Part shown: one piece after another, positions 15,287 to 63,241 of the stretch
Position numbering within the stretch: position 1 is the stretch's first letter
Layout of the letters: every line of letters begins with the position of its first letter
DNA from: Comamonas testosteroni
GTDB taxonomy: Bacteria; Pseudomonadota; Gammaproteobacteria; Burkholderiales; Burkholderiaceae_C
Direction: 5' to 3'
Assembly: GCA_008727115.1 (NCBI GenBank)
Contig: CP044131.1
Span: 992,001 to 1,056,000 of the forward strand
Length of the DNA stretch: 64,000 nucleotides
Notes under the pieces: generated by a model
Seen by the model: only the letters and a program-made list of their open reading frames with translations
Database searches by the model: none
Told to the model about the DNA's origin: nothing
Made by a program: the position numbers and the translations under genes

Positions 15287-17095
15287 ATGAATCACATCCG
15301 TAATTTCTCCATCATTGCGCACATTGACCATGGCAAGTCCACGCTGGCAGACCGCCTGATCCAGCGCTGCGGCGGCCTCGCCGAACGCGATATGGAATCC
15401 CAGGTGCTGGACTCGATGGACATCGAGAAAGAGCGTGGCATCACCATCAAGGCACAGACGGCTGCACTGCAGTACAAGGCTCAGGATGGCAAGATCTACA
15501 ACCTGAATCTGATCGACACCCCCGGTCACGTGGACTTCTCCTATGAAGTCTCGCGCTCGCTGTCAGCCTGTGAAGGTGGTCTGCTGGTGGTCGATGCCTC
15601 CCAGGGCGTGGAAGCCCAGACCGTGGCGAACTGCTACACCGCGCTGGACCTTGGCGTGGAAGTGTTCGCCGTGCTGAACAAGATGGATCTGCCACAGGCC
15701 GATCCTGAGAATGCCAAGGCAGAGATTGAAGACGTGATCGGCATTGATGCCAGTGACGCCATTCCTTGCTCGGCCAAGACTGGCATGGGCATTGACGAGA
15801 TTCTGGAAGCCATTGTGCGCAAGGTGCCGCCACCTGAGGGCAATCCTGATGGCCCGCTGCGCGCCATGATTGTGGACAGCTGGTTTGATCCCTATGTAGG
15901 TGTCGTGATGTTGGTGCGCGTTGTTGATGGAGAGCTCAAGAAGAACGAGCGCTTCAAGATGATGGCCACAGGCGCTGCCTACGAGGCCAACAATATTGGC
16001 GTGTTTACCCCTGCCAACCAGCCGCGTGACGTGCTCAAGGCGGGTGAGGTGGGTTACATCATTGCCGGCATCAAGGAACTCAAGGCCGCCAAGGTGGGCG
16101 ACACCATCACGCTCGAAAAGAAGCTGCCCAATAACCTGGGTCCTGCCAGCGAAGCACTGCCAGGCTTCAAGGAGGTGAAGCCCCAGGTGTTTGCGGGCCT
16201 TTACCCGACCGAAGCCAGCGAATACGACCAGTTGCGTGATGCCCTGGAAAAGCTGCAGCTCAATGATGCTGCGCTGCAGTTCGAGCCTGAAGTCTCGCAG
16301 GCCCTGGGCTTTGGCTTCCGCTGCGGTTTCTTGGGTCTGCTGCACATGGAAATCGTGCAGGAACGACTGGAGCGTGAATTCGATCAGGACCTGATCACTA
16401 CGGCCCCGAGCGTGGTCTACCAGGTGGTCAAGGGTGATGGTGAGCTGATCGATGTGGAGAACCCCTCCAAGATGCCCGATGTGGGACGCATTCAGGAGAT
16501 CCGCGAACCTATCGTGACCGTTCATCTGTATATGCCGCAGGACTATGTGGGTCCAGTGATGACACTGGCCAACCAGAAGCGCGGTATTCAGATGAATATG
16601 CAATACCACGGGCGTCAGGTCATGCTGACTTACGAGATGCCGCTGGGTGAGATCGTGCTGGACTTCTTTGACAAGCTCAAGAGCGTCTCGCGCGGCTATG
16701 CCTCCATGGACTATGAGTTCCTGGAGTACCGCCCGTCGGATGTGGTGAAGGTGGATATTTTGCTCAACGGCGAGAAGGTTGATGCGCTGTCCATCATCGT
16801 GCACCGTACGCAAGCCACCTACCGTGGTCGTGCCGTGGTCGCCAAGATGCGTGAAATCATCAGCCGCCAGATGTTCGATGTGGCGATTCAGGCTGCCATT
16901 GGCGCCAACATCATTGCTCGAGAAACCGTCAAGGCCATGCGCAAGAACGTGCTGGCCAAGTGCTATGGCGGCGACGTGTCGCGTAAGCGCAAGCTGCTGG
17001 AAAAGCAGAAGGCCGGCAAGAAGCGTATGAAGCAGATCGGCTCGGTGGAAGTGCCTCAGGAAGCCTTCCTGGCCATTCTGCAAGTGGAGGACTGA
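15287..17095 (+). CDS. lepA: Elongation factor 4 (LepA) GTPase
   Basis: A 602-residue ribosome-associated GTPase that back-translocates stalled ribosomes. G1 is [10 protein letters not shown]2/G3 include RGITIK and DTPGHVDF, G4 is NKMD. The LepA-specific C-terminal domain is present, ending [23 protein letters not shown] 15287 directly follows an in-frame TTG; ATG is the more likely start and gives the normal [16 protein letters not shown] beginning. It overlaps lepB by one base (TGATG), so the two are co-translated. Confidence 0.97.
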
Positions 17096-38645: not shown

Positions 38646-41555
38646 TCAACCAATCTGAGAAAGCAGAGACTGAGCCTTGGCCTTCAGGTCACCATGGGCT
38701 TCGGCGATCACTTCTTCAATGAGTGTACGCGCTCCATCACTATCGCCGATGGCATTGAATTCCTCTGCCAAAGCCAGCTTGGTAGCCAGAGGGTCTTCGG
38801 GCTCGGTGGGTGGCGCGACGGCATCAATTTGCGGTGCTGTACCGGAGTTGCCCAGGTCCAGAGACAGGCCGCTCAGGTCAAAAACTGCCTCGGGCTGTGC
38901 CTGCTCGGGAGTGAGGGCGGAGATGTTGCGCTCGTGCTCGTCAATGGGCAACTGCAGGGTCATGGCCTCGGTGCTGTGCTCATCTGCTCCTGTGGCTGTG
39001 AAGTTCAAAGATGCTGCGTCCTGAGTGCTCTCCTGAGCGGACTGAGGCTGCAGTGGCAGGGCAAAGCTGTCGAGGTCGAACTCAAGTGCATTCAAGGAGG
39101 CCTGCTCTGCAGGAGCTGGAGCTGCTACTGGAGTAGGGGCTTGAGAGGCTGTTGCAGGCAGGCTGAACGATGCAAGGTCGTCGAGATCCAGGCTCAGGCC
39201 ATTGTCTGCAGCAGCGTCAGATGCCGGTTTTGCCGGCGCTGCTGCGGGAGCTTCCCACTGAGCCAGTGCTGCGAAGTCCTGTTCGGAGGGCTGTGCAACC
39301 GGCTCAGAAGTCACAGGTTTGGCATTGGCTGAAGCCTCGGGAAGGCCCAGATCCAGGCTGAAGTCCATGCTGGAGGGTTCTGTAGGAGGACCTTCGCGAT
39401 TGACGGCTGTTTCGTTGGCCTGAGCCGCCGCCAAAGCCGAGCCAAAAGCTACTGCGGAACCTGCCCCGCCTTTTAGCGCTGTAGAGGGGTCGGTTGGGCT
39501 GAAGGCACTGGACGCGGCTGCGCTCTTGGCTTGTGGCGATCCGCCGGGCTGGTAGAGCTGATTTTCTGGATCCAGGATGCGACCTTGGTCTGCCAGGCGT
39601 TGCCACTCGGGGCCCTTGCCTTGAGTGAGGGCGTACAAGTTGCCAGCGACTGCAGCGTAGGCCATACGGTCATGGCGCTTGGCGTAGATCTCCGCCAGCT
39701 TCTGGTGCAGTACCAGGCGGTTGGGGTCAGTACGCAGGGCTTCCTTGAGAATCTCTTCGGCCTGGAGGTCTCGCCCATAGGCCAAGTAAACATCGGCTTC
39801 GGCTAGAGGGTCGACATCACCTGCATCCAACTGGCTGGGAGAGTACTGCATGGACTGGCCGGACATCTGACTGCTGGTGGTCGTCGTATCCACGCGCTGG
39901 CCACCGCTGGCGCCAAAGAATGAGTCGGCAGACAGCTGACTGTCGCCCAGTGTGCTATCGGCCTGTGCTGCAGCCGCAGCCTTGCGGCGCTGGGCTACGC
40001 GGTAACCGCCATATCCCAGTAACAAAGCCAACAGAGCAGCTCCGGCCAATGGAATGGTGGGGTCCTCCATCAGGCTGTCGATAAAGCTGGGTTCCTCTGG
40101 CACTGGGGCAGGAGGCGCTGCAGGCTTGGGAGGCGCAACCGGAGCAGGTGCAGGAGCAGGAGGCTCGACAGGTTCCGGTGCAGGTGCTGTCTCACCTGCG
40201 GGCTCGGTAGCTGCTTTGGGCTTGCCCAGGTCTGTGCTCACGGCCCCGGGTTCGCTCACTGCCTCTGTGGGGGCAGCAGGCATTGTGGTTGCTTCCGCAC
40301 CTGTGGCAGGCACAGCAGCAGTGGCTGTCGTGGCGGCTGGAACATTGATGCCAGGGGCTGAAGGAGGCGTTGCCGCAGGCACTGCAGGTGTCGCAGCATC
40401 GCCTGCTGGCTTGGCTGCAGCGGCAATCTGGCTCAGTTCAGCCATGTTCCGCTTGAGCTCGTCCGCGCGAGCCGATTGCTCTGCAGCCTGCTTTTGCTGT
40501 GCCAGCTGCTCATCAGCCACAACTCCCTTGACTGCGCCCTTGGAGAGGGTCAGTTTGTCTGGTGCAGCAGTGCTGGGCTTGCCGTCTTCCACGTGGGCCT
40601 GGACCTGGCCGGAAGCGCTGCGGGATGCAGCTTCCACGGGCGCGACAGGGGCGACACCCGCGAGCTGGCGGCGAAACTGGTTGAAGTCCTGAGACTGGGC
40701 CGCCATGATCTTGCGCGCTTCCTTGGCGGAGGTGGCCTGCGCAGCAGTCTGGTCGGGAAGCTGAATGACAGCGCCGCTGCGCATGCGGTTGACGTTGCCA
40801 CCGATGAAAGCCTGGGGGTTGCTGCGCAGCATGGCTACCAGCATCTGATCCAGAGATACTCCTGCGGGCTTGTGAGCGGCGGCAATGCGGCCGGCCGTGT
40901 CGCCAGTCTTGACTCGCATCTCACCAAGGCTGCGGGCTGGAGCCGCTGCACTGTCCGGGGCCTGGCGAGTACGCTGAGACTTGGAAGATGCAGTATCCAG
41001 GTCACGATCATTGCGCAGGTCGCGGCCCGGGGCATTGATGGCGGCAATCGTTGGGCGTGTGGTCGCAGCAGGGCGAGCAGGAGTGACTGCGGGGGTGGGC
41101 GCAGGTGCCGCTTGAGCCGCCGTGGTGGGGGCGGGAGCTGCACGGCGTGATGAAGGGGGATCCAGCAGCAGGGTGTAGTTGCGCTGCAGCTTGCCCGATG
41201 CCCAGTTGGCATCGATCACCAGGTCTACAAAGGGATCGTTAACAGGCTGAAAGCTGCTGAGCTTGAGGATAGTGCTGCCATTGGCGCGCTTTTGCACTTG
41301 CACGCGAACGGAGTTTGCTGTGCCCGTGTACTCCATGCCTTGAGCGCGGAATGCCGCAGGTGAAGCAATGGCTGCTTGCAGACTGTCGGCTTCCGCAGCG
41401 CTGAGCTGGGGAATTTCGACCTCGGCGCGCAAGGGCTCTCCCAGAGCCGACTGAACCGTGATGCGGCCCAGTGCCAATGCCCATGCATCGGTGGCCGAAA
41501 GGCTTGACAGTGCGAGGGTGGCTGCGGCGAGCGCAGAGAGTTTCCAGCGTTGCAT
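38646..41555 (-). CDS. fimV: FimV/HubP-like peptidoglycan-binding polar protein
   Basis: A 969-residue inner-membrane protein. Start at ATG 41555 gives a signal peptide (QRWKLSALAAATLALSSL) ending before WALALGRITVQSALGEPLRAEVEI, the FimV N-terminal domain. A LysM-type region follows (VKTGDTAGRIAAAHKPAGVSLDQML). A long Ala/Pro/Glu-rich stretch precedes one transmembrane helix near residue 510 (IPLAGAALLALLLGYGGY). The cytosolic part is acidic with a TPR-like segment (DVYLAYGRDLQAEEILKEAL) and the FimV C-terminal domain (ALAEEFNAIGDSDGARTLI). Such proteins organise type IV pili and cell poles. An in-frame region extends to 41624. Confidence 0.93.
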   Translation of the reverse strand: MQRWKLSALAAATLALSSLSATDAWALALGRITVQSALGEPLRAEVEIPQLSAAEADSLQAAIASPAAFRAQGMEYTGTANSVRVQVQKRANGSTILKLSSFQPVNDPFVDLVIDANWASGKLQRNYTLLLDPPSSRRAAPAPTTAAQAAPAPTPAVTPARPAATTRPTIAAINAPGRDLRNDRDLDTASSKSQRTRQAPDSAAAPARSLGEMRVKTGDTAGRIAAAHKPAGVSLDQMLVAMLRSNPQAFIGGNVNRMRSGAVIQLPDQTAAQATSAKEARKIMAAQSQDFNQFRRQLAGVAPVAPVEAASRSASGQVQAHVEDGKPSTAAPDKLTLSKGAVKGVVADEQLAQQKQAAEQSARADELKRNMAELSQIAAAAKPAGDAATPAVPAATPPSAPGINVPAATTATAAVPATGAEATTMPAAPTEAVSEPGAVSTDLGKPKAATEPAGETAPAPEPVEPPAPAPAPVAPPKPAAPPAPVPEEPSFIDSLMEDPTIPLAGAALLALLLGYGGYRVAQRRKAAAAAQADSTLGDSQLSADSFFGASGGQRVDTTTTSSQMSGQSMQYSPSQLDAGDVDPLAEADVYLAYGRDLQAEEILKEALRTDPNRLVLHQKLAEIYAKRHDRMAYAAVAGNLYALTQGKGPEWQRLADQGRILDPENQLYQPGGSPQAKSAAASSAFSPTDPSTALKGGAGSAVAFGSALAAAQANETAVNREGPPTEPSSMDFSLDLGLPEASANAKPVTSEPVAQPSEQDFAALAQWEAPAAAPAKPASDAAADNGLSLDLDDLASFSLPATASQAPTPVAAPAPAEQASLNALEFDLDSFALPLQPQSAQESTQDAASLNFTATGADEHSTEAMTLQLPIDEHERNISALTPEQAQPEAVFDLSGLSLDLGNSGTAPQIDAVAPPTEPEDPLATKLALAEEFNAIGDSDGARTLIEEVIAEAHGDLKAKAQSLLSQIG

Positions 41556-41921
41556 AGGGCTCAAACTTGATTTGTGCAGCCTACAGCCCTTTTGTTTTTG
41601 ATCGGGTTCGTGGCTGCGGTGCACATGAAAATTGAAAATTCGGCAGGTGACAAAGGTCTTGCTACCCGACTATTACAGCTTGCATTGTCAACGACGCTAT
41701 TGCCTTGTGAGCAAAAGCCGCCTTGCCAAGGCGCGCAATTGTTGTCGATTGGCAACGAGATGAAACCTAATGTAGGTCTGAAGCCTGTCTTCGTTCATTC
41801 GAATAGGCAAACAATTGTCGCCCAGCCCGAGCCTTGGAGATGAAAAAGCGCCAGCCATCAAAAGGATGACTGGCGCTTTGCTGTGCTGGATCAAGCCCTT
41901 GGCGGGCTGATGGTGGCTGAA
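41556..41921. other. fimV-asd intergenic region
   Basis: A 366-bp stretch holding the asd terminator (41845-41879) and, presumably, the fimV promoter. I see no convincing gene. A minus-strand 33-codon frame starting near 41795 (begins MNEDRLQ) lacks a ribosome-binding site and is not called. Confidence 0.5.
41845..41879 (-). terminator. Intrinsic terminator after asd
   Basis: AAAGCGCCAG (41845-41854) pairs with CTGGCGCTTT (41870-41879), extended by CATC/GATG. On the minus strand a T run follows. It makes asd a monocistronic unit separate from fimV. Confidence 0.88.
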
Positions 41922-43034
41922 TCAGTCAGCCAGCAAGATACGCAGCATGCGGCGCAGCGGCTCGGCAGCGCCCCACAGCAACTGGTCACCGATGACGAAG
42001 GCCGACAGGTACTCGGGGCCCATGTTCAGCTTGCGCACGCGACCCACGGCGATGTCCAGGCCACCGGTGGTGGCTGCGGGTGTCAGTTGCTTGACGGTTT
42101 CGGCACGGTCGTTGGCCACGAACTTGACCCATGGGTTGCCCCCCTTGATCAAGGCTTCGATCTCTTCAAGAGGCAGATCCTTTTTCAGCTTCAGCGTCAG
42201 CGCCAGGCTGTGGCAGCGCATGGCGCCGATGCGCACGCACAGGCCATCCACGGGGATGGTGGCTTCGGTGCCGAGGATCTTGTTGACTTCAGCCTGGCCC
42301 TTCCACTCTTCCTTGGACTGGCCGTTGGGCAGTTGCACATCGATCCAGGGGATCAGGCCGCCAGCCAAGGGGGCACCGAAAAATTCGGTGGGCACATCTT
42401 CGCGGATGGTGGTGGCAACCTTGCGGTCGATGTCCAGAATGGCGGAAGCGGGAGTGGCCAGCTCGTCGGCCACGGCGGCATGCACCACGCCCATGCCCTT
42501 GAGCAGCTCGCGCATGTGGTTGGCGCCGCCACCCGATGCGGCTTGATAAGTCATGGAGGAGACCCATTCCACCAGACCGGCCTTGAACAGGCCGCCCAGG
42601 CCCATCAGCAAGATGGAGTTGGTGCAGTTGCCGCCGATCCAGTTCTTGCCGCCTGCGGCCAGCTTGGCTTTGATCAGCTCGTCGTTGACGGGATCCAGCA
42701 CGATGACGGCGTCATCTTCCATGCGCAGCGACGAAGCTGCATCGATCCAGTGGCCGTTCCAGCCGGCTGCGCGGATCTTGGGGAAGACTTCCTTGGTGTA
42801 GTCGCCGCCCTGGCAGGTGATGATGATGTCGCACTTGGACAGCTCGGCGATGTCGTTGGCATCCTTGAGCTGGGTATGCACCGTGGCCATCGCGGGGGCC
42901 TTGCCGCCGGCGTTGGAGGTGGAGAAGAACACCGGCTCGATCAGGGCAAAGTCGCCCTCGGCCTGCATGCGATCCATCAGCACGGAGCCGACCATGCCAC
43001 GCCAGCCTACCAAACCAACCAGTTGCTTGCTCAT
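41922..43034 (-). CDS. asd: Aspartate-semialdehyde dehydrogenase
   Basis: A 370-residue enzyme that reduces aspartyl phosphate to aspartate semialdehyde, the common precursor of lysine, threonine, methionine, isoleucine and diaminopimelate. NADP-binding start [13 protein letters not shown], catalytic Cys137 in [15 protein letters not shown], and the conserved His of the RIGAMRCHS region. ATG 43034 has an AAAGGG ribosome-binding site 8 bp upstream. A leader with a small peptide gene and alternative hairpins precedes it (43083-43228). Confidence 0.96.
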
Positions 43035-43082
43035 TTGAAATGCCCTTTCAGTTTTGAAAACCGTTGTTTTCGACTGCTTCCT

Positions 43083-43135
43083 CCGGCTCGTCTGAGCCGG
43101 ATCAAGGGCGCACGACGAACCGGGCTGGGTCAGCC
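43083..43135 (-). promoter_or_regulatory. Mutually exclusive RNA hairpins in the asd leader
   Basis: Reading the minus strand: segment 1 GGCUG (43135-43131) pairs with CAGCC (43127-43123); segment 2 CCGGUUCGUC (43123-43114) pairs over 10 bp (one G-U) with segment 4 GACGAGCCGG (43092-43083); segment 3 CCGGCUC (43100-43094) pairs with GAGCCGG (43089-43083). Segment 4 cannot pair with both 2 and 3. Segment 1 overlaps the peptide stop codon. No T run follows segment 4, so it is not a plain terminator; a Rho- or translation-based switch is possible. Confidence 0.5.
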
Positions 43136-43228
43136 TGTAATCGTCTTAATAGTGATTGCGCGCATGTCCAGGCCGGCAAGCATTGCAGGCTTGGCTGTTT
43201 CAGTATTGAAGGTCGGTGCGGCAAACAT
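43130..43228 (-). CDS. Candidate asd leader peptide, 32 residues, Thr/Ile-rich end
   Basis: ATG 43228 has GGAG 5 bp upstream. The 32-codon frame reads [16 protein letters not shown] then [16 protein letters not shown] and stops at 43130. Six Thr and three Ile occur, with I-T-I-K-T-I-T in seven consecutive codons right before the stop. This resembles the threonine-operon leader of E. coli. It lies 95 bp ahead of asd, an enzyme of the Thr/Ile/Lys/Met branch. Whether it is translated or regulatory is inferred. Confidence 0.5.
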
Positions 43229-43291
43229 AAGAGCTCCATTCTAGCGACTGCAGAAAAAGTCTGAAGATTTAAAATGGATTGATGACATTGT

Positions 43292-43359: not shown

Positions 43360-43393
43360 AAAAAAAGCCACCGTTTGTGGTGGCGGCTTTTTT
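43360..43393 (-). terminator. Intrinsic terminator after leuB
   Basis: On the minus strand GCCACC/GGTGGC stem with a preceding GCC and a run of seven T residues, 17 bp after the leuB stop. Confidence 0.88.
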
Positions 43394-43410: not shown

Positions 43411-44484
<1,074 letters not shown>

Positions 44485-61837: not shown

Positions 61838-61848
61838 ACCTTTCTTTT

Positions 61849-61893
61849 TGATAGCTGGTGGCGCTTGCTATTCAAGCGCTTCGGCGCTTTTTT
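61849..61893 (+). repeat. Family A repeat acting as a terminator-like hairpin before hom
   Basis: GATAGCTGGTGGCGCTTG then a perfect AAGCGC/GCGCTT stem (61874-61879, 61884-61889) with TTCG loop and six T residues, only 14 bp before the hom start. An alternative stem pairs GCGCTTG (61861-61867) with CAAGCGC (61873-61879) and would break the first. Confidence 0.7.
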
Positions 61894-61906
61894 GACCTTA
61901 GAACTT

Positions 61907-63241
61907 ATGAAACCCATCCAAGTAGGCCTGTTGGGCATTGGCACCGTAGGTAGCGGTACTTTCAATGTGCTGGAACGCAACCAAGACGAGATTCGCCGTC
62001 GTGCGGGTCGCGGCATTGAAATTACGATGGTGGCCGACTTGGATACCGAGCGCGCCAAGAGCGTGGTGGGTGACAAGGCCAAGGTCGTTGGCGACGCACG
62101 CGAAATCATTGCCAACCCCGACATCGACGTCGTGGTCGAGCTGATCGGTGGCTACGGCATTGCCAAGGCCCTGGTGCTGGAGGCGATTGCCGCTGGCAAG
62201 CATGTGGTGACCGCCAACAAGGCGCTGCTGGCCGTGCACGGCACGGAAATCTTCAAGGCCGCCGCCGAAAAGGGTGTGATCGTGGCCTATGAGGCGGCCG
62301 TGGCTGGTGGCATTCCCATCATCAAGGCGCTGCGCGAAGGCCTGACGGCCAACTCCATCCAGTGGGTGGCCGGCATCATCAACGGCACGACCAACTTCAT
62401 CCTGTCCGAAATGCGCGACAAGGGTTTGGACTTCGATGTGGTGCTCAAGGAAGCCCAGCGACTGGGTTACGCCGAAGCCGACCCCACCTTCGACATCGAA
62501 GGTGTGGACGCTGCCCACAAGGCCACGCTGATGAGCGCGATTGCCTTCGGCATCCCCGTGCAGTTCGACAAGGCCTATGTGGAAGGCATCACCAAGCTGG
62601 CCGGCGCCGACATCAAGTACGCCGAACAACTGGGCTACCGCATCAAGCTGCTGGGCATCACCAAGCGCACCGACAAGGGCGTTGAGCTGCGCGTTCACCC
62701 CTCGCTCGTGCCATCCAAGCGCCTGATTGCCAATGTGGAAGGTGCGATGAACGCCGTGGTCGTGAACGGCGATGCCGTGGGCACCACGCTGTACTACGGC
62801 AAGGGAGCGGGTTCCGAGCCTACGGCTTCTGCCGTGATCGCTGACCTGGTGGACATTGCCCGCCTGCACGGCGCTGACCCTGCGCACAGCGTGCCTGCGC
62901 TGGCCTTCCAGTCGAACACCCTGGCTGCCGCAGGCAATGAACTGCCCGTGCTGCCTATGGCCGAAGTCATCACCAGCTACTACCTGCGCATCCGCGTGGC
63001 CGATGAAGCCGGTGTACTGGCCAAGATCACCGGCCTGCTGGCGGGTGCGGGCATCAGCATCGACGCCGTGCTGCAGCGCGAAGCCGATGAAGTGGGCGGC
63101 GAGGGTTCGACCCAGACCGATCTGATCATCCTGACACATGACACCCGCGAGGGTGATATGGACAAGGCTCTGGCCGAAATCCAGAGTCTGCCCACAGTGC
63201 TGGCTCCCATCACGCGTATCCGCAAAGAAGAGCTGAATTAA
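61907..63241 (+). CDS. hom: Homoserine dehydrogenase
   Basis: A 444-residue NAD(P)-dependent enzyme reducing aspartate semialdehyde to homoserine, the branch to threonine and methionine. The Rossmann start is IQVGLLGIGTVGSGTFNVL, with GRGIEITMVADLD, and a C-terminal ACT domain (SYYLRIRVADEAGVLAKITGLL) for threonine feedback. ATG 61907 gives the normal start; the upstream frame is repeat DNA. A family A hairpin ends 14 bp upstream; a family B repeat follows the stop, then thrC. Confidence 0.95.
   Translation: MKPIQVGLLGIGTVGSGTFNVLERNQDEIRRRAGRGIEITMVADLDTERAKSVVGDKAKVVGDAREIIANPDIDVVVELIGGYGIAKALVLEAIAAGKHVVTANKALLAVHGTEIFKAAAEKGVIVAYEAAVAGGIPIIKALREGLTANSIQWVAGIINGTTNFILSEMRDKGLDFDVVLKEAQRLGYAEADPTFDIEGVDAAHKATLMSAIAFGIPVQFDKAYVEGITKLAGADIKYAEQLGYRIKLLGITKRTDKGVELRVHPSLVPSKRLIANVEGAMNAVVVNGDAVGTTLYYGKGAGSEPTASAVIADLVDIARLHGADPAHSVPALAFQSNTLAAAGNELPVLPMAEVITSYYLRIRVADEAGVLAKITGLLAGAGISIDAVLQREADEVGGEGSTQTDLIILTHDTREGDMDKALAEIQSLPTVLAPITRIRKEELN

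Follow-up and report, generated by a model that had tools for sequence, protein, structure and literature searches.

A predicted threonine-, isoleucine-, and lysine-sensing attenuator in front of asd in Comamonas testosteroni and its relatives

A codon run rich in Thr, Ile, and Lys, together with the conserved RNA behind it, very probably forms a real and apparently undescribed feedback sensor in front of asd in Comamonas testosteroni, as judged from comparison of related genomes and from RNA folding. Asd stands at the branch point that leads to Thr, Ile, Lys, and Met and to diaminopimelate for cell walls; Thr, Ile, and Lys are all synthesized from aspartate semialdehyde. We consider it likely that the element is a ribosome-sensing attenuator for asd, which would combine sensing of charged tRNA, a leaderless start, and a translational output. 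An earlier note on this DNA knew of no Thr/Ile leader described for asd in this group, and none was found in the open-access literature here either; a prior description elsewhere is possible. A paper on reinitiation at leader peptides (PMC4833913) makes no mention of asd or leuB.

A Thr/Ile/Lys codon run precedes asd

The window, that is, the whole 64,000-nt stretch of DNA that was analyzed, contains the 32-codon minus-strand frame reported in the earlier note, with coordinates and codons as given there (Table 1). The frame ends in AITIKTITG, and its stop codon lies 95 nt from the asd ATG at 43034. At least six Thr plus Ile residues occur in only 2 of the 2126 stop-terminated 12-codon stretches of the window, one of them the leader; the Thr and Ile richness of the leader end is beyond chance. 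The sole other pre-stop stretch that matches the leader in this respect is found at 15892 on the minus strand. The gene behind asd (38646-41624, minus strand) encodes a FimV/HubP-type polar protein.

Table 1. Features of the leuB-asd region, in coordinates of the window
Feature	Position	Strand	Evidence or remark
leuB, 3-isopropylmalate dehydrogenase	43411..44484	minus	TIGR00169, 494 bits (cut-off 353); C-terminal end normal here
Terminator-like hairpin and T run, 3' of leuB	43367..43384	minus	Pattern scan
Putative promoter TTCAGA, 16 nt, TAGAAT	43238..43265	minus	-10 box kept in relatives, ends 9 nt 5' of the leader ATG
Leader peptide, 32 codons	43130..43228	minus	ATG at 43228, TGA 43132-43130; frame conservation
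Candidate sensing run ATC ACT ATT AAG ACG ATT ACA (I T I K T I T)	43136..43156	minus	Composition conserved
Segment a, CCGGTTCGTC	43114..43123	minus	Predicted partner of c in the ON state; first half under a ribosome at the leader stop codon
Anti-Shine-Dalgarno segment GCCCTT	43104..43109	minus	Complementarity, permutation, and covariation analyses
Segment b, CCGGCTC	43094..43100	minus	Partner of GAGCCGG in c in the predicted OFF state
Segment c, GACGAGCCGG	43083..43092	minus	Common partner for a and b
Variable spacer hairpin d (CAGTC...ACTG)	43049..43076	minus	Forms in both predicted ribosome states
asd Shine-Dalgarno region AAGGGC	43042..43047	minus	Complement of GCCCTT
asd, aspartate-semialdehyde dehydrogenase	41922..43034	minus	TIGR01745 asd_gamma, 658 bits (cut-off 403)

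The leader proposed in the earlier note gained strong support from relatives, since the run and the RNA switch downstream of it are kept in most of the family. Among 60 genomes of the GTDB family, which were fetched regardless of leader presence, 49 carry a Thr/Ile/Lys-rich run shortly 5' of asd. Relatives within the genus retain the start codon, the reading frame, and the terminal ...ITIKTITG ahead of asd, with a middle part that diverges. Farther out, the N-terminal half of the leader diverges and the run persists; leaders of other genera keep its composition, not its order, with ends such as ...ATITKTTTIKG, ...TFTTTTKITG, and ...ATTITTIKG directly before the stop codon.

Across 53 free leaders, the residues at -10 to -2 are 49% Thr, 21% Ile, and 17% Lys. 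This corresponds to enrichments over neighboring genes of 9.4-fold for Thr and 4.6-fold for Ile, both inflated and partly built in because frames were chosen by their Thr plus Ile content, and of 3.8-fold for Lys, which played no part in the choice. Over all runs, Lys enrichment was 3.8- to 5-fold. The representative set comprised 93 non-redundant runs; Thr, Ile, and Lys were all present in 93 of 93, and Met was almost missing from the runs by composition count. The Thr/Ile leader suggested previously is thus to be widened to Lys. No Thr/Ile/Lys run was seen before asd in the Massilia, Herbaspirillum, and more distant loci examined, nor was such a leader found upstream of hom, ilvB, or lysC of the same genome. 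The start of hom lies 69 nt behind the preceding gene (61838-61907, plus strand of the window), without a Thr/Ile leader of its own.

The leader transcript probably begins at or near the start codon

Of 52 free leaders, 47 have a -10 box with at least 5 of 6 matches ahead of the in-frame ATG, compared with 5 of 1216 random ATGs. The boxes mostly read TACAAT or TAGAAT, with a median gap of 8 nt to the ATG, and a Shine-Dalgarno sequence before the leader ATG is missing in most free leaders. Given this spacing of about 8 nt, shared by nearly all of them, the leader mRNA is probably leaderless, with a transcript that starts at the ATG or no more than a few bases from it. The GGAG that the earlier note placed 5 nt before the ATG is present, but its use as a ribosome site is improbable: most relatives are without it, and in the window it sits between the conserved -10 box (TAGAAT, 43243-43238) and the start codon, so that it is probably untranscribed. 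Leaderless transcripts have been described as rare in Proteobacteria (PMC3896937).

The run is carried by a free peptide or by the LeuB tail

Comparison of the loci revealed two carriers of the run. In records of Comamonas, Giesbergeria, Macromonas, Melaminivora, Tepidimonas, and Limnohabitans it is carried by a free leader peptide, as in the window; in records of Variovorax, Xenophilus, Xylophilus, Malikia, Rubrivivax, and Aquincola it is the C-terminal tail of leuB (46 loci), with ends such as ...MGDAVVAAITKKTITG and ...AITKTITKS before the stop codon. Run and leuB use one stop in 46 of 46 fused loci. In free-leader loci with a locatable leuB end, leuB terminates normally, in VAAL, VKALG, and similar endings. 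The idea of a separate leader peptide fits the window and the other free-leader loci, but many relatives carry the run as a LeuB tail instead. Placed on a LeuB tree, which is weakly supported, the free and fused states need at least three changes.

A conserved RNA lies between the run and asd

Behind the stop codon, the same order of blocks recurs: segment a (CCGGUUCGUC), GCGCCCU, segment b (CCCGGC), segment c (GACGAGCCGGG), a variable part, and the Shine-Dalgarno region GAAAGGGCG. By complementarity, a (CCGGUUCGUC) and the CCGGC core of b compete for c (GACGAGCCGG), and GCGCCCU is complementary to the asd Shine-Dalgarno sequence AAGGGCG. Several changes on the two sides are matched, among them GCCUUU/AAAGGC in L012, GCCCCUU/AAGGGGC in L041, UGCCCCU/AGGGGCA in L153, CGCCCCU/AGGGGUG in L148, and UGCGCC/GGCGCA in L155; a joint change to CCUGG in a, CCUGG in b, and CCAGG in c is found in L119, L181, and L197.

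RNAalifold consensus folds of whole alignments were poor, with alternative helices and gaps in conflict, and anchored segments, permutation, and folding by ribosome position were therefore used instead. When own partners were compared with partners permuted from other genomes over the 93 representatives, own partners paired better (z of -4.5 for anti-Shine-Dalgarno with Shine-Dalgarno, -5.5 for a with c, and -5.5 for b with c), although these scores are inflated by the relatedness of the genomes; for the first of these pairs in the leuB-tail group alone the signal was weak (z of -1.7). The predicted OFF structure contained nine two-sided compensating cells, a number matched by 0 of 500 shuffles. 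With almost no variation in the a and c arms of the free group, a count of compensating pairs is uninformative there.

A covariance model of the block found 74 of 90 family loci at asd, among them L139, whose run had missed the Thr plus Ile threshold. The genome of the window has one copy of the RNA element by this model, without paralogous switches. In an order-wide search, matches were confined to the window's own family; few candidates were scored by the fast filter, so absence elsewhere is weak evidence. The Asd proteins of L161 and L119 are 73% and 91% identical to that of the window, yet their switches are nearly identical (104 and 108 bits), which may point to a replacement of asd behind a retained switch. 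At L151 (589-689), a weak match of 20.6 bits accompanies a leuB without a Thr/Ile tail, possibly a decaying switch.

Related runs are found elsewhere in the order. A second group of Thr/Ile/Lys-rich leaders before asd comprises L236-L248, L227, and L088. In the Burkholderia/Ralstonia-type family, a label that rests on Ralstonia L088, runs stand 81-88 nt 5' of asd in 24 of 30 loci, and the RNA behind them is different and partly similar (UCGUCCGUCGUGCCCG...); this leader and RNA may represent an earlier version of the switch. In a third family within the order (L208, L209, and L221), Thr/Ile/Lys-rich frames lie about 80 nt 5' of asd and end in STTIITKKTKTTVLV and SIKRTTTIITKTVMKG before the stop, with yet another RNA.

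Ribosome position selects between two hairpins in silico

For the folding comparison, a ribosome whose A site holds the stop codon was assumed to cover 10 nt downstream, and a stalled ribosome was placed three codons earlier. With the ribosome at the stop codon, the 53 free leaders gave 0.9 expected pairs for a with c, 4.7 for b with c, and 4.0 for anti-Shine-Dalgarno with Shine-Dalgarno. With the ribosome stalled in the run, the corresponding values were 8.1, 1.1, and 0.9. Simulated stalling removed the anti-Shine-Dalgarno pairing in 34 of 53 free leaders and created it in none, compared with 26 losses and 30 gains among 265 shuffled controls. Mutually exclusive hairpins set by ribosome position are thus predicted for the free leaders; in the leuB-tail group the effect was weak. 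There, only 10 of 40 loci gained the a:c hairpin, and a switch would have to depend on folding kinetics or on pairing outside the model. Total openness of the Shine-Dalgarno region changed only slightly between the two positions, and in the window's own sequence it was paired in the minimum-energy fold at both. Hairpin d formed in both states (6.4 and 8.2 pairs).

Proposed mechanism and alternative explanations

From the conserved sequences and the folding, we infer translational attenuation that senses Thr-, Ile-, and Lys-tRNA. Transcription from a promoter behind leuB would start at the leader ATG or only a few bases away from it. The ribosome would then read last codons that specify Thr, Ile, and Lys, products downstream of the Asd reaction. 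When all three charged tRNAs are plentiful, it would reach the stop codon and cover the first half of a; c would pair with b, and the exposed GCGCCCU would pair with the asd Shine-Dalgarno sequence, reducing asd translation. When one charged tRNA is scarce, the ribosome would stall in the run, a would be free, and the a:c hairpin would take up the anti-Shine-Dalgarno segment, allowing translation of asd. The sensing would fall to ribosomes finishing LeuB in Variovorax, Xylophilus, Rubrivivax, and others.

The output step is the least certain part of this model. The same sensor might instead act on transcription, with ribosome position setting premature termination before asd as in thrL, either at an intrinsic terminator made of hairpin d and a U-rich tail or through Rho. 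We regard this as rather unlikely. The known amino acid attenuators of Proteobacteria do mostly act on transcription (PMC7298713), an 8-mer with at least 6 T precedes the Shine-Dalgarno region in 31 of 53 free leaders, and the consensus has TTTT behind hairpin d; however, hairpin d forms whether or not the ribosome stalls, in the window it has no T tail, and the pair of anti-Shine-Dalgarno and Shine-Dalgarno covaries. The switching hairpin b:c is never followed by a U-tract (at least 4 T in the next 8 nt, 0 of 93 representatives), and translational control is therefore favored over transcriptional control as the probable output, with an involvement of Rho possible.

Two further explanations concern the role of the frame. 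The TTTIKG or ITKTITG end might stall the ribosome as a nascent peptide rather than through tRNA shortage, in keeping with the conserved flavor of the motif and with the Gly (or Ser) that almost always precedes the stop. We hold such arrest to be improbable: the order and number of Thr, Ile, and Lys vary freely, the residues upstream of the run are wholly different between leader and LeuB carriers, and the Gly and stop codons share nucleotides with RNA capable of pairing with the downstream CAGC(U)C in a hairpin. Least credible of all is a non-coding element in which function resides solely in the conserved RNA and the frame is incidental. The RNA after the stop is conserved better than the peptide, and synonymous changes make up a share of only 0.43 of the single-base codon changes, where 0.27 is expected, from pairs that are not independent. 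Against this, almost every free leader has its in-frame ATG where the transcript is expected to start, Thr plus Ile richness of this degree is rare in the window, and in every fused locus the run is the end of leuB, hence certainly translated. The tRNA-sensing translational attenuator thus remains the preferred reading.

Comparison with known attenuators

The leader of the E. coli thr operon (thrL, Rfam RF00506) is similarly short and rich in Thr and Ile codons, and it precedes aspartate-family genes and uses competing hairpins. The asd leader differs in its target (asd instead of thrABC), in the added Lys codons, in a switching hairpin without a U-tract terminator, and in being probably leaderless. 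Of the thrL-like attenuation first suggested, the short frame enriched in end-product codons was found and competing hairpins were obtained in silico; an intrinsic terminator with a U-tract as the switching hairpin was absent from the 93 representatives, and the likely output is translational, by Shine-Dalgarno sequestration. Rfam families gave no usable match at the locus: RF00506 had regional hits of only 21.2 bits (cut-off 55), on the leuB terminator and none at the leader, and neither a lysine riboswitch (L-box) nor a T-box was present before asd among matches up to an E value of 5.

In translational attenuation of the erm/cat type, stalling on a leader refolds the RNA and frees the Shine-Dalgarno sequence of the next gene. 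The same logic is proposed for asd; erm and cat sense antibiotics, whereas the asd codons point to amino acid supply. At E. coli rph-pyrE, translation of the end of the upstream gene controls the next gene, and the signal is the supply of UTP to RNA polymerase. The leuB-tail form resembles this arrangement, except that it would use specific codons on an enzyme's C terminus instead of UTP supply. The transcript of the Sinorhizobium meliloti trpL attenuator starts with the ATG of the leader frame (PMC7298713). It is leaderless, as the asd leader probably is, and differs by its Trp codons, its transcription terminator, and the gene and class in which it occurs.

Implications

The two carriers suggest a portable codon cassette that switched at least three times within the family between a free leaderless peptide and a LeuB tail, so that the last codons of an enzyme would serve as amino acid sensor for the next gene, reading Thr, Ile, and Lys jointly and acting on asd translation. 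We judge the case for this full picture to be evenly balanced. From the leuB-tail form one can see how a structural gene might acquire a regulatory leader or release one, and a clade with both carriers side by side makes the origin of a leader peptide directly testable. If the proposal is true, the sensor would account for the unusual Thr/Ile/Lys tails of the LeuB proteins concerned, and a branch-point sensor that reads three products would achieve multivalent feedback in a simple way.
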